This document shows, piece by piece, positions 10,005 through 12,228 of a stretch of 47,700 bases of DNA. The DNA is from SAR116 cluster bacterium AG-337-N21 (GTDB taxonomy: Bacteria; Pseudomonadota; Alphaproteobacteria; Puniceispirillales; Marisalimonadaceae), in contig QBZZ01000017.1 in assembly GCA_003282145.1 (NCBI GenBank), positions 1 through 47,700 on the forward strand, in the 5' to 3' direction. A model generated the notes under the pieces. That model was not told where the DNA came from, ran no database searches, and was given only the letters and a program-made list of their open reading frames with translations. The position numbers and the translations under genes are program-made. Position 1 is the first letter of the stretch; each line of letters begins with the position of its first letter.

Positions 10005-10081
10005 GGGGGTGTAGCTCAGTTGGTTAGAGCGCCGGCCTGTCACGCCGGAGGTCGCGAGTTCGAGTCTCGTCACTCTCGCCA
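10005..10081 (+). tRNA. tRNA-Asp (anticodon GTC)
   Basis: 77 nt fold as a complete tRNA. The acceptor stem GGGGGTG pairs with CACTCTC (two G-U pairs), the D arm begins TAGCTCAGTTGG, the anticodon stem is CCGGC/GCCGG with loop CTGTCAC (GTC anticodon), and the T arm is GCGAG-TTCGAGT-CTCGT. The CCA is encoded, followed by TTATATT. The gene stands alone. Its 3' 43 nt recur at 12186-12228, marking it as an integration site (see mobile element). Confidence 0.97.
10037..10079 (+). repeat. Left direct repeat (attachment-site copy inside tRNA-Asp)
   Basis: It covers the anticodon loop through the acceptor 3' strand of the intact tRNA. It matches 12186-12228 at 41 of 43 positions; the differences are T to A just after GGAGG and T to G just after TTCGAG. 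Confidence 0.85.
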
Positions 10082-10145
10082 TTATATTCCTAGCAATATC
10101 AATGGATTTACTTCACTAATTTTTTTCAAATTTTTTTAATAAGCT

Positions 10146-10180
10146 TTGTACACAGTTTTGTGTGCACAATTTTTATTTTA
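10146..10180 (+). terminator. Candidate terminator (or recombinase site) after tRNA-Asp
   Basis: An imperfect hairpin: TTGT-ACACA, loop GTTT, TGTGT-(GC bulge)-ACAA at 10146-10169, followed by a T-rich tract. It is 65 bases past the tRNA and could end its transcript. The 11-bp CTTTGTACACA in the left arm (10144-10154) also occurs at 12077-12087 near the other end of the island, so it may instead be an arm-type binding site. Confidence 0.35.
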
Positions 10181-10220
10181 ATGTTTTTAAGAATTTTTTA
10201 TAAATTATACTATTAAAATT

Positions 10221-10233
10221 ATACGCAGCGTAT
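10221..10233. promoter_or_regulatory. Palindrome upstream of the DGQHR gene (possible operator)
   Basis: ATACGC-A-GCGTAT, a perfect 6+6 inverted repeat that stands out as GC-rich in AT-rich surroundings. It ends eight bases before a TTGACA box. It could be an operator for autoregulation; DndB-family proteins are known regulators in dnd clusters. It is followed by a T-run, so a weak terminator (5-bp stem, 3-nt loop) is the alternative. Confidence 0.4.
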
Positions 10234-10241
10234 TTTTTTAT

Positions 10242-10270
10242 TTGACACTGCATATAATTTATTATAAAAA
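10242..10270 (+). promoter_or_regulatory. Candidate sigma70-type promoter for the DGQHR gene
   Basis: A consensus -35 TTGACA lies at 10242-10247. Possible -10 elements are TATAAA at 10263-10268 (15-bp spacer) or TAAAAA at 10265-10270 (17-bp spacer). A start about 30 bases before the ATG would leave a short leader. Judged by eye only. Confidence 0.45.
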
Positions 10271-10301
10271 ATAACAGTTAATCAAAAATATGGAGTTTGC
10301 G

Positions 10302-11804
10302 ATGGATGAATTTATAAATAATAGTAATCAAACGATTGATATTCAGGACATGATCGATGGTAGTAGTCCAGATAGTTCAGGAAAAAATTTTTATGTTTTT
10401 TTTCATTTTAATTTAGGTCAACCAACTATAACTTTTAATATGTCTATGCGCGATTTAATTCAATTTACTAAAGTTAAAAATAAAACAAATGTATCAATTG
10501 ATCCTTTTCTTGGTGATGAATATGTTGCTCAAAGGGAAGAAGTAAGAAATCACACTAAGAAATTAGCATTGTATACTTTACAAGGGCTAGTAAACTCAAG
10601 AATTATAGAAATGAAAAAAAATGGTGATGATATAAATGATGAACTTGAGAAATTGATTTCAGAACTTAATATACCACCTTACACATCTTTTCCTCCATTA
10701 GTTGCGACATTAAAAGTAAATAAATCAAATAACAAAACAAATATTCAATTGACACGAGTAGAAGACAGAGCTGGCAATCCAACAAACTGTTTTATTGCTA
10801 CATTAGCACCTAGTAATCCAATTTATTTAATAGATGGACAGCATAGAAAAAGAGCGCTTGAGGAAGTATCAAATTTTTTAACAAAGACATTAGAATTAAA
10901 TAATTATCCAAAAAAAGGGTTATTAGAACCGGCTTATCATAATAAAGATTATTTATCTGATTATATGCTTGATTTTTGGAGTTCCATTCAAAATCTTGCT
11001 TTTACAAAATGTCATGTGGCTGTAGAATGTCATCTAAAATTAGACGAGTTTTGTGAGCAACAGTTATTCTATGATTTAAATACGCATAGTAGAAGAGTTC
11101 AAGTTAGTGATGGTTGGCAGTTTGACCATGCAAATAAGATTAATCAGTACGTCAAGGACAATCTAATTAACAAAATCCTTCCATTTGAACCAAGTCAAAA
11201 AGATCAAAACAATTGGAATTTAGATGATGGTCGGTTGAGCAGGAAAGATGTAAATAACTTAACGTCAATAATGTGTATAGGTTCTACAATTTCTACAAAA
11301 GTAACACCAAAATTATTGGAAGAAAGAGCTAAATATTTAGATATTTTTTGGAAGTCTATATTAGAAATTCCTGGAATTGGAAAACCAAATGCTAAACAAA
11401 ACACAGTCGCTGGTCAAACTGTTGTTTTGAAAGGTTTGTGTCAATTAGGTTATGAGTTAGTTCATGGACATCAAAATATAAAGGATTTAGATGGATGGAA
11501 AAAACTATTGAATGCATTACAGACAAAACAAATCGATTTTTCTCATAAAAATGAGCTTTGGGCGAGTTTATTTTTAGCTTCTAATGAAAGAAATAAAAAA
11601 TTTCCAGGAATTGAAAATTTTGTATATATCAACGAGGATAGAGTGATTTCATATGGTAATTATGATCCTAAAAATGAATGGGTTATTTTTGGTAGTAGAT
11701 CATCCTTTATTCAACCAAGAATCGGCGATTTAATTCGTTACAATCTTAATTTAAATCCTAGGCCCTCTGTAACGAAACAAATAAATAAATTGAAAGATCA
11801 GTAA
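10302..11804 (+). CDS. DGQHR-domain protein (DndB-like)
   Basis: 500 residues from the chosen ATG. An earlier in-frame ATG exists at 10290, but GGAG at 10292-10295 sits six bases before ATG 10302 and would lie inside the longer form. The YLIDGQHRKRALEE motif (DGQHR at residues 178-182) and QQLFYDLNTHSRRV (about residues 250-263) identify the DGQHR/DNDB superfamily. Known members include DndB, the regulator of DNA phosphorothioation operons, and many uncharacterised proteins on islands. No dndCDE, sulphur-transfer or restriction gene is in the window, so a phosphorothioation role cannot be claimed. It is the main cargo of the tRNA-Asp island and is followed by a 73-residue gene 43 bases downstream. 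The N-terminal 160 and C-terminal 200 residues match nothing I recognise. Confidence 0.85.
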   Translation: MDEFINNSNQTIDIQDMIDGSSPDSSGKNFYVFFHFNLGQPTITFNMSMRDLIQFTKVKNKTNVSIDPFLGDEYVAQREEVRNHTKKLALYTLQGLVNSRIIEMKKNGDDINDELEKLISELNIPPYTSFPPLVATLKVNKSNNKTNIQLTRVEDRAGNPTNCFIATLAPSNPIYLIDGQHRKRALEEVSNFLTKTLELNNYPKKGLLEPAYHNKDYLSDYMLDFWSSIQNLAFTKCHVAVECHLKLDEFCEQQLFYDLNTHSRRVQVSDGWQFDHANKINQYVKDNLINKILPFEPSQKDQNNWNLDDGRLSRKDVNNLTSIMCIGSTISTKVTPKLLEERAKYLDIFWKSILEIPGIGKPNAKQNTVAGQTVVLKGLCQLGYELVHGHQNIKDLDGWKKLLNALQTKQIDFSHKNELWASLFLASNERNKKFPGIENFVYINEDRVISYGNYDPKNEWVIFGSRSSFIQPRIGDLIRYNLNLNPRPSVTKQINKLKDQ

Positions 11805-11847
11805 TCGTACGACTTTTAAATAAAATAGTTATAATTATGAGACAAAA

Positions 11848-12069
11848 ATGAATGATAAAAATGAAATTTTAAAAAGATATGTAGCTGGTGAAATTAATCT
11901 TTTGGAAGCACAGGAAAATTTTTTATCAATAGGTATATGTAAAAAACTTTCAAAAAATATCTTAATAAATACCAAAAGAGATAATATCTACTCTTTATCA
12001 AAAAAAATAATTAATGAAGATAGTAATAACATTGAAGAAGAATATTTTTTTGAAATTGAGTTTGAGTAA
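11848..12069 (+). CDS. Small hypothetical protein of the tRNA-Asp island
   Basis: 73 residues, ATG start. No recognised domain. The sequence is charged, with a Lys-rich first half (NEILKRYVAGEINLLEAQ, predicted helical) and a very acidic C-terminus (NIEEEYFFEIEFE). There is no membrane segment or signal peptide. It follows the DGQHR gene by 43 bases in the same direction and is probably on the same transcript. Small acidic partners often regulate or mimic DNA for a neighbouring DNA-related protein, but that is speculation here. The lack of a strong Shine-Dalgarno (GAGAC upstream) lowers confidence a little. Confidence 0.6.
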   Translation: MNDKNEILKRYVAGEINLLEAQENFLSIGICKKLSKNILINTKRDNIYSLSKKIINEDSNNIEEEYFFEIEFE

Positions 12070-12185
12070 AAAATTTCTTTGTACACATTTTGTTAACACT
12101 TTTTCGAGGGAATCGGTGGGAACTCTATAGCCGTATTTCCCTGAATACCTACCTCTTTACACCCCACGCATAGGTTTTTTACGAA
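12070..12185. other. Non-coding right end of the island, locally GC-richer
   Basis: I see no gene here. After CTTTGTACACA (12077-12087, a second copy of the 11-mer at 10144) comes a segment clearly richer in G and C than its surroundings. It has an AGGGAA/TTTCCCT pair about 22 bases apart, and CCTA ... TAGG followed by six Ts just before the tRNA fragment. It could be a small structured RNA, a recombination region, or the eroded remnant of an earlier insertion. Confidence 0.4.
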
Positions 12186-12228
12186 CTGTCACGCCGGAGG
12201 ACGCGAGTTCGAGGCTCGTCACTCTCGC
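12186..12228 (+). repeat. Right direct repeat: truncated tRNA-Asp 3' end (attachment-site copy)
   Basis: 43 bp identical to the 3' part of tRNA-Asp except at two positions. There is no 5' half, so it is not a functional tRNA gene. It marks the distal boundary of the inserted segment. Confidence 0.85.

Follow-up and report, generated by a model that had tools for sequence, protein, structure and literature searches.

In the window (the whole 47,700-nucleotide stretch analysed, from a marine SAR116-cluster bacterium), two genes lie between a tRNA-Asp and a displaced copy of its 3′ end. By comparison with viral contigs, we show that this segment has at either end one half of the attP site of a set of temperate HTVC010P-like phages. 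We think it probable that positions 10037-12228 form a compact integrated cassette, devoid of an integrase and moved by that of a phage. The initial annotation had proposed a small passenger served by an integrase encoded elsewhere; an integrase is indeed found beside the same attP in the phage contigs, and the movement itself is what we infer.

An insertion at tRNA-Asp

The locus comprises the following features:

10005..10081, + strand: tRNA-Asp (GTC), the attB target, complete despite the insertion (ARAGORN and Rfam both)
10037..10081, + strand: left core (attL), the last 45 nt of tRNA-Asp, matching the phage attP core at 44 or all 45 positions
10082..10166, + strand: left arm, with a degenerate IHF-like motif and two arm sites
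10146-10154, + strand: left arm site TTGTACACA
10158-10166, + strand: left arm site TTGTGTGCA
10290..11804, + strand: DGQHR/DndB-family protein, 504 aa (Pfam DndB PF14072, PHROG_36010)
11848..12069, + strand: 73-aa partner protein with an acidic C-terminus (G042 and G109 have homologues of it downstream of a DGQHR gene)
12079..12098, + strand: right arm sites, whose first bases precede the core by 107 and 96 nt
12079-12087, + strand: right arm site TTGTACACA
12090-12098, + strand: right arm site TTGTTAACA
12099..12185, + strand: conserved right block, from arm sites to core, matching the phage contigs
12186..12228, + strand: right core (attR), the displaced tRNA-Asp 3′ end, 41/43, final CA lost

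The repeat, the tRNA and the open reading frames were all recovered again, in agreement with the initial description of a 43-bp repeat (41/43) of the tRNA-Asp 3′ half around two genes. The repeat search gave copies at 10037-10079 and 12186-12228 (43 nt, 95%, spacing 2149), with mismatches at 10052 (T to A) and 10065 (T to G); the second copy, searched in its own genome, matches with an E-value of 1.5e-13 and is therefore not due to chance. In a near-identical island of a second genome, G021, the repeat is perfect over 45 nt and finishes with CCA; the core is therefore one of 45 nt, shortened by decay to 43 nt in the window. The assembly is 82% complete, and the tRNA-Asp at 10005 is its sole high-identity tRNA-Asp match. 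Besides the two plausible genes (10290-11804 and 11848-12069), the only open reading frame of at least 50 aa between the repeats encodes 66 aa on the − strand, inside the DGQHR gene.

Among 27 same-genus loci with a complete tRNA-Asp, 17 are empty, with a glyoxalase gene directly downstream, and the segment is therefore an insertion. It combines the two features that define a tRNA-integrated genomic island, a tRNA 3′ end repeated at both termini and related genomes with the site unoccupied; these empty loci speak against the ancestral duplication that their lack would have indicated.

The same tRNA holds other cargo in two genomes. Between similar ends, G003 carries GmrSD_N and SLFN_AlbA_2 pieces (a GmrSD/AlbA-2 protein), spread over two non-overlapping contigs that we take to be one island, and G034 carries a trypsin-like protein. 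Furthermore, tRNA-Glu is the target of a sister phage and has island versions of its own in G043, with a one-gene island, and in G046. In the G043 island, by eye, the left sites are of the TTTGC type and the right ones of the TACCC type, a discord that speaks against a phage-moved cassette. The 5.1-kb G046 contig joins an element of another type, by its right end, to a left arm of the type of phage contig L137, and the cargo at this junction is another GmrSD/AlbA-2 gene. This is the one tandem junction seen; there was none at tRNA-Asp and none with the phage itself. The G046 contig slightly raised our estimates both for the phage-moved cassette and for a wider class of such elements. Copies of the right block in G035 and G033 had been considered as islands, and were kept as relics since they have no tRNA core and no convincing second copy.

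Correspondence of the island ends to a phage attP

In IMG/VR, 10 distinct contigs of temperate HTVC010P-like phages contain the 45-nt tRNA-Asp core together with the arms. Phage contigs with this attP encode an integrase beside it (PHROG_1, E 2.2e-45), and the TerL of the group is 55% identical to that of HTVC010P and its relatives. The resemblance to HTVC010P-like phages thus lies in TerL and in an integrase with a tRNA-type attP; it concerns the phage as likely helper, not the island. In PMC3861242, a phage group, G16, is tied to SAR116 through an integrase/att match; the phages seen here may or may not belong to it.

The arm sites follow the pattern TTGTnnnCA and occur in pairs at fixed distances. 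On the right, the distance from the first base of each arm site to the core is 107 and 96 nt in 10/10 phage contigs and in the islands of the window genome (G000), G021, G003 and G034. Within each of the 10 contigs the arm-site type is the same on both arms: type TTGTACACA is shared by six phage contigs and the G000, G021 and G003 islands, and type TTGTTTGCA by phage contig L134 and the G034 island. This agreement could provide a sequence rule predicting which phage moves which island; it would pair the L134 integrase with the G034 ends and that of L082 with the G003 and G021 ends. The right block with its arm sites (107 bp) is 87-97% identical to the 10 phage contigs; that of G034 is nearest to L133 (95%, versus 92% for L134), though its arm sites are of the L134 type. 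The left arm of G034 has one recognisable arm site. In the window, the candidate IHF motif at 10097-10109 is degenerate, with no strict match to the IHF consensus; strict matches occur in the phage contigs and in G003. As an arm site on each side is altered as well, the ends of the G000 copy are partly decayed, and it may no longer be mobile.

These ends could alternatively be the remains of a phage that integrated at the tRNA and lost nearly everything except its arms and a moron gene, leaving a dead element. Such an origin would account for phage attP ends and decayed arm sites, and phages of the group do have variable short genes in the interval from left arm to integrase (100 aa in L080, 57 aa in L086, another in L137). 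In the G043 island, moreover, what look by eye like the terminal codons of the late gene of these phages precede the right arm. We nevertheless consider it unlikely. In the 2104 bp that separate the cores, the arms alone match 8/10 phage contigs and nothing matches the remaining two; on either side the similarity stops at the arm sites, as it does by eye in G003 and G034, with unrelated cargo. No phage gene was found inside the G000 island by match to the phage contigs, which may be fragments. Nor did the integrase or the terminase reveal a fuller prophage in the SAR116 order among 151 genomes: the best integrase match was partial, at 34%, with no close relative in the SAR116 genomes searched, and the terminase matched in 3/151 genomes, none of that order. 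Finally, the cargo has moved between species, as described below. The sister phages L138-L140 showed no tRNA core within 1.1 kb upstream of their integrase.

Cargo genes and their transfer between hosts

The 504-aa protein has its DGQHR motif at residues 182-186, invariant in two alignments. It resembles the DndB/DGQHR family by this motif and by its match to Pfam DndB PF14072 (E 4.2e-22, 79.1 bits, gathering cut-off 29.1), and its best full-length family is the phage family PHROG_36010 (E 5.2e-73, residues 27-494). However, it scores far under the curated cut-offs of TIGR03233, the DndB equivalog (24.8 bits against 328), and TIGR03187, the DGQHR domain (28.3 against 58.85), and the island has no dnd genes; membership in a Dnd system was dropped on account of these scores. 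As far as the available part of PMC4619093 goes, the DGQHR/DndB family is a relative of the N-terminal domain of GmrSD type IV restriction enzymes, and GmrS has a similar motif, DGQQR. A sequence search of the PDB found nothing for the DGQHR protein, and its AlphaFold2 model (pLDDT 76.7, pTM 0.53) gave 47 PDB matches up to E 10, none below 0.001; a likeness to ParB (ranked 42nd, E 9.1) is no evidence. For the 73-aa protein, one weak PDB sequence match (E 0.075) was judged chance, and a poor single-sequence model, mostly strands (pLDDT 65), was set aside.

The proposal of an unlabelled two-gene system is supported, with reserves. The pair recurs in the same order at two further loci, G042 and G109, the latter with an extra gene in between, but relatives of the small partner occur in 6/136 genomes of the order in which no DGQHR gene was found. 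The partner is absent from 14 phage DGQHR loci and from G056, and none was seen in G302 or in G181, where the gene lies at a contig end and a neighbour may be missing. In IMG/VR, a single-sequence search found no close relatives of the DGQHR protein, and an alignment-based search found 13 distant phage loci (32-36%). The cargo is probably a defence module, most likely a DNA-targeting one directed against phages.

Between G000 and G021, the island genes differ at 13/579 third positions versus 466/3380 in the flanking genes (p 7e-20). They are far less diverged than the flanks of the two hosts, and have therefore moved laterally. This could have been by homologous recombination of the whole tRNA-Asp region, through transduction, a gene transfer agent or transformation, the att repeats being a relic of one old insertion. 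Indeed, the identity break lies within the left arm and not at the core, and the first right-hand genes (7%, 10%, 9% and 11%) are somewhat under the flanking mean of 13.8%. The left spacer, from core to arm sites, is 59% identical beside a cargo at 99%, which a single integrase-mediated transfer does not explain. However, the intergenic flank directly past the right core falls to 80%, versus 99% in the cargo, so that the exchange ended near the island edge, and different cargoes occupy the same place with the same ends, at a second tRNA too. We find recombination of the region improbable.

Proposed mobility and relation to known mobile elements

Under the phage-moved cassette that we favour, the integrase of an infecting phage, with an excisionase-like protein, would act in trans on the arm sites of the island. 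The segment would be excised as a small circle bearing an attP and inserted at the tRNA-Asp of another cell, with cargo interchangeable between the shared ends. Phage particles would carry it there, by itself or, where phage and segment had integrated in tandem at one tRNA, as a fusion with the phage. Excision, packaging and transfer are steps that we infer.

The 87-bp right block, kept from arm sites to core in islands and phages alike, might double as a cos or pac site, making the island a true satellite packaged as a concatemer in helper particles; this would be a special form of the phage-moved cassette, not exclusive of it. According to PMC10803314 and PMC11389934, PICMIs are carried as concatemers, and a DNA motif seems to be all that their packaging requires. 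We doubt this version, as the block adjoins the core and may serve integration alone, and the island has no replication gene. Furthermore, the block pattern retrieved no island from IMG/VR, its eight matches all lying with a phage late gene. In the same database, searches with the DGQHR protein of the window and with the G034 and G043 cargoes found no viral contig that carries island cargo.

CIMEs, cis-mobilizable elements related to ICEs and IMEs, have attL and attR ends and no recombinase, and depend on a related element. The segment likewise has attL and attR, matching the attP of integrase-bearing phage contigs, and no recombinase of its own; unlike in CIMEs, its partner element is a tailed phage, and it carries no more than one or two genes. 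As to the tandem accretion of CIMEs, one junction of two elements was seen, in G046.

Phage satellites, as far as described in the available text of PMC10803314, share with the island site-specific integration, a phage dependence that we would extend to it, possible defence cargo and marine examples. However, PICI, P4-like, PLE and PICMI satellites are said to encode their own integrase and excision factors, and PICMI115, described as the smallest with characterised activity, measures 6.1 kb. The island is 2.15 kb long, with no integrase, replication or packaging genes; neither of its two genes is a recombinase. It would extend both satellites and cis-mobilizable elements to integrase-less forms with phage-type ends and one or two genes.

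We propose, tentatively, that such "attP cassettes" form a class: one- or two-gene segments that keep only the attP arms of a temperate phage, are excised, inserted and carried by it, and bring interchangeable genes, including defence genes, from one marine bacterium to another. They would then be the smallest phage satellites known. If attP alone mobilises a gene, the lower size limit of satellites falls about threefold (6.1 to 2.15 kb), and many of the single genes found as orphans beside a tRNA may prove to be cassettes driven by phages, which bears on the wider question of the route taken by defence and accessory genes among small-genome ocean bacteria. Like MITEs and CALINs (integrase-less cassette arrays, PMC11389934), the island offers only DNA sites for a foreign recombinase; unlike them, its sites are the attP arms of a temperate phage, a type of element that the available part of PMC11389934 does not name. 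Attachment-site cassettes would be to temperate phages what MITEs are to transposons and CALINs to integrons.

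The island at tRNA-Asp and its relatives

The tRNA-Asp repeat bracketing two genes, as described in the initial annotation, is present exactly as stated, with both genes (504 aa and 73 aa) on the + strand between the repeat copies.

10005-10081: tRNA-Asp, the sole tRNA of the window
10037-10079: direct repeat copy 1, 43 nt, covering the 3′ part of tRNA-Asp
12186-12228: direct repeat copy 2, 43 nt, with two differences from copy 1

The host genome assembly (G000) comprises 55 contigs, totals 2.04 Mb and is 82% complete. Rfam places a TPP riboswitch in the same window (46954-47054, - strand).

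The segment was inserted into tRNA-Asp. We surveyed this tRNA in 61 genomes, 37 of them of this genus (G000 included), and found it complete and identical in 27, every one from this genus (loci L005-L031). These 27 were classified; the core, i.e. the tRNA 3′ half, is also present in three more genomes of the genus, G037-G039. Related genomes do have the empty sites on which the initial annotation had made a mobile element depend: in 17 of the 27 loci a glyoxalase gene follows the core within ~100 bp. Four loci carry an island (G000, G021, G034 and G003, the last split over two contigs), and in six either ~1.2 kb of other sequence precedes the glyoxalase gene or this gene is beyond reach. Of 136 order genomes, five were found to have the DGQHR gene, as were 4 of 337 in a class-wide sample, G000 counted. 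Within the order, G021 carries the same island as G000 (99%), and the DGQHR proteins of G042, G056 and G109 are 39-43% identical to that of G000.

The island genes have moved laterally. Between G000 and G021, third codon positions differ at 13 of 579 in the two island genes versus 466 of 3380 in eleven right-hand flanking genes (Fisher p 7e-20); without the outlier gene at 18949-19725 (98 of 249) the flank gives 368 of 3131. None of the left-hand genes of G000 is matched within the 20 kb of G021 that was compared. At 59% identity, the left spacer counts against a simple transfer between these two genomes, and the region from the arm sites (paired TTGTnnnCA motifs) to the start codon is 92% identical; the left arm was therefore exchanged or changed separately.

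Island ends and the attP of a phage group

The island ends are phage attP sequence. The ~160 bp ending with the right core (core included) recur in G021, G003 and G034, and in more diverged form in G008. Searching IMG/VR with the pattern of the right block, the conserved stretch before the right core, matched eight viral contigs. In every one the tRNA-Asp 3′ half comes after the block, and a left arm comes next wherever the sequence is long enough to show it. A search with the integrase adjoining the phage attP gave 13 loci, nine with the tRNA-Asp core; both searches combined yield 10 distinct phage contigs with this core. In all ten, TTGTnnnCA sites of the right arm begin 107 and 96 nt ahead of the core; in eight, those of the left arm lie 70 and 81 nt past CTCTCGC, and in the two TTGTAGACA contigs a strict match finds the second left-arm site only. 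All ten also have an IHF-like motif at 17 in the left arm. When one left arm was shuffled by single bases, at least two TTGTnnnCA-type sites arose in 0.1% of shuffles and the IHF-like motif in 1.3%. The three variable arm-site bases agree between left and right arm within each of the 10 contigs.

Arm-site classes in phage contigs and bacterial genomes
Phage contigs: TTGTACACA, n=6; TTGTAGACA, n=2; TTGTTAACA, n=1; TTGTTTGCA, n=1
Islands of G000, G021 and G003: TTGTACACA, single sites changed
Island of G034: TTGTTTGCA
G008: TTGTTAACA/TTGTTAGCA

The right-hand spacing of arm sites in the islands is that of the phages, and the 107-bp right arm of the four islands is 83-97% identical to theirs. That of G034 is nearest to phage contig L133 and not to L134, though it has the arm type of the latter.

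The G008 copy (L074:2286-2436) consists of the right arm and a diverged tRNA-Asp 3′ half. It stands outside the usual locus, with a TPR-protein-like gene on one side and a methyltransferase-like/flagellin-like pair on the other (both named by eye); a relic and an unusual insertion are candidate readings. In two SAR116 genomes, G035 (L075:9238-9331) and G033 (L076:2981-3075), the right block (80-85%) lacks the core and precedes what by eye is an MMPL-type exporter gene; no convincing second att copy was found.

The phages encode a tyrosine integrase (PHROG_1), a repressor-like protein, a terminase 55% identical to that of HTVC010P-type pelagiphages, and an excisionase-like protein (weak match, E 1e-4). 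A published survey ties phage group G16, possibly this one, to SAR116 via integrase and att matches (PMC3861242). The 2104 bp between the cores of the G000 island match eight of 10 phage contigs, which may be fragments, at the arms only, and do not match the other two, sister phages L137 and L139. Three sister phages (L138-L140, IMG/VR; integrase 63% identical) show neither tRNA core nor right block in the 1.1 kb upstream of the integrase, the expected place of attP, which may have moved or been lost. Two marine phages of IMG/VR (L116, L117), whose other proteins resemble those of the group by eye, have a DGQHR gene (36%) in their early region.

The initial annotation had the island moved by an integrase elsewhere. 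Such an enzyme is indeed encoded beside attP in the phage contigs, but no cognate one was found in the genomes searched: among 151 (136 of the order) the phage integrase is matched only in part, at 34% for the best hit, and the terminase has three matches, none inside the order. We infer that the phage integrase would act in trans on the island, which would be carried in phage particles. In the G000 copy one left and one right arm site are changed, the right core lacks its end and no IHF-like motif matches strictly, so this copy may be fixed in place. The G021 and G003 copies look nearer to intact.

Cargo at tRNA-Asp and tRNA-Glu

Pfam identifies the 504-aa protein as DndB (E 4.2e-22), but its scores stay below the NCBIfam cut-offs for both DndB and DGQHR. 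Its match to PHROG_36010 runs along its length (E 5.2e-73). Homologues occur in 21 Pseudomonas phage records (31-34% among the best 20 of 21) and 13 IMG/VR loci; a structure model confirmed no fold. The pair with the 73-aa partner, which the initial annotation proposed as a two-gene system, was found in two further loci. In G042 a homologue of the partner comes immediately after the DGQHR gene; in G109 a DUF3427 gene stands between the two. None was found in 14 phage DGQHR loci, and weaker matches occur without a DGQHR gene in 6 of 136 order genomes (two of these loci, inspected, are surrounded by small ORFs without assignment). The G042 region (L066:5718-13595) joins the pair to a C5-methyltransferase, an NgoFVII-like nuclease and an integrase, with a tRNA-Ser nearby, and is possibly a restriction system using these genes. 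According to passages of PMC4619093, GmrS has a DGQQR motif in common with the DGQHR family and a predicted ParB/Srx fold. Judged from family and neighbours, the G000 cargo most likely serves as a DNA-targeting defence module. In G302, a one-contig alphaproteobacterial genome, a DGQHR gene lies in what appears to be a small island at tRNA-Arg that encodes an integrase itself (L145:6022-9822).

The islands combine different cargoes with common ends. In G003 a GmrSD_N protein stands at the end of one contig; a second contig opens with the remainder of a protein of this kind, including an AlbA_2 domain, and continues into the right arm and core (best PADLOC match HEC-05, E 1.2e-29). G034 carries a 440-aa trypsin-like protein that matches RT-Protease_XI of PADLOC over the protease part (E 4.5e-23).

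Phage L137 has a tRNA-Glu half in place of tRNA-Asp. Its attP matches 86 of 101 genomes, most at the tRNA core alone, and we inspected eight regions. In G043, which belongs to a different genus, tRNA-Glu contains a one-gene island of ~2.1 kb; its right block is kept as far as the L137 contig extends, and its 620-aa cargo protein has no Pfam match. In G046 (L163:906-3431, on one 5.1-kb contig), a right block of a second type (78% over 134 bp to one in G054) is joined through the tRNA-Glu core to an L137-type left arm (85% over 59 bp). Behind this arm lies the gene for a 719-aa GmrSD_N-HNH-AlbA_2 protein, whose identity to the two pieces in G003 is 31% and 26%. This is the cargo type of G003 at another tRNA, apparently in tandem behind another element, its far end beyond the contig. 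Across the tRNA-Asp and tRNA-Glu loci, then, not every cargo is a defence gene. Pairs of core copies that enclose other genes occur in G027 (1.26 kb), G054 (3.9 kb) and G082 (3.3 kb), which we counted apart from the islands of this phage, and a single core in the tRNA-Glu regions of G037, G040 and G048. The G054 segment (L162:580-4530), in tRNA-Glu, ends with the second right-block type; its ORFs include transporter-like and FAD-enzyme-like ones and, by eye, no integrase.

Comparison with known elements

Titles and abstract openings on integrase-less phage elements, with subscription journals mostly outside reach, hold no description of attP-only phage cassettes. Known satellites are said, in passages of PMC10803314, to encode their own integrase and excision factors, and no smaller one than PICMI115 is said to have characterised activity. 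As hitchers without a recombinase, part of PMC11389934 names MITEs and CALINs.
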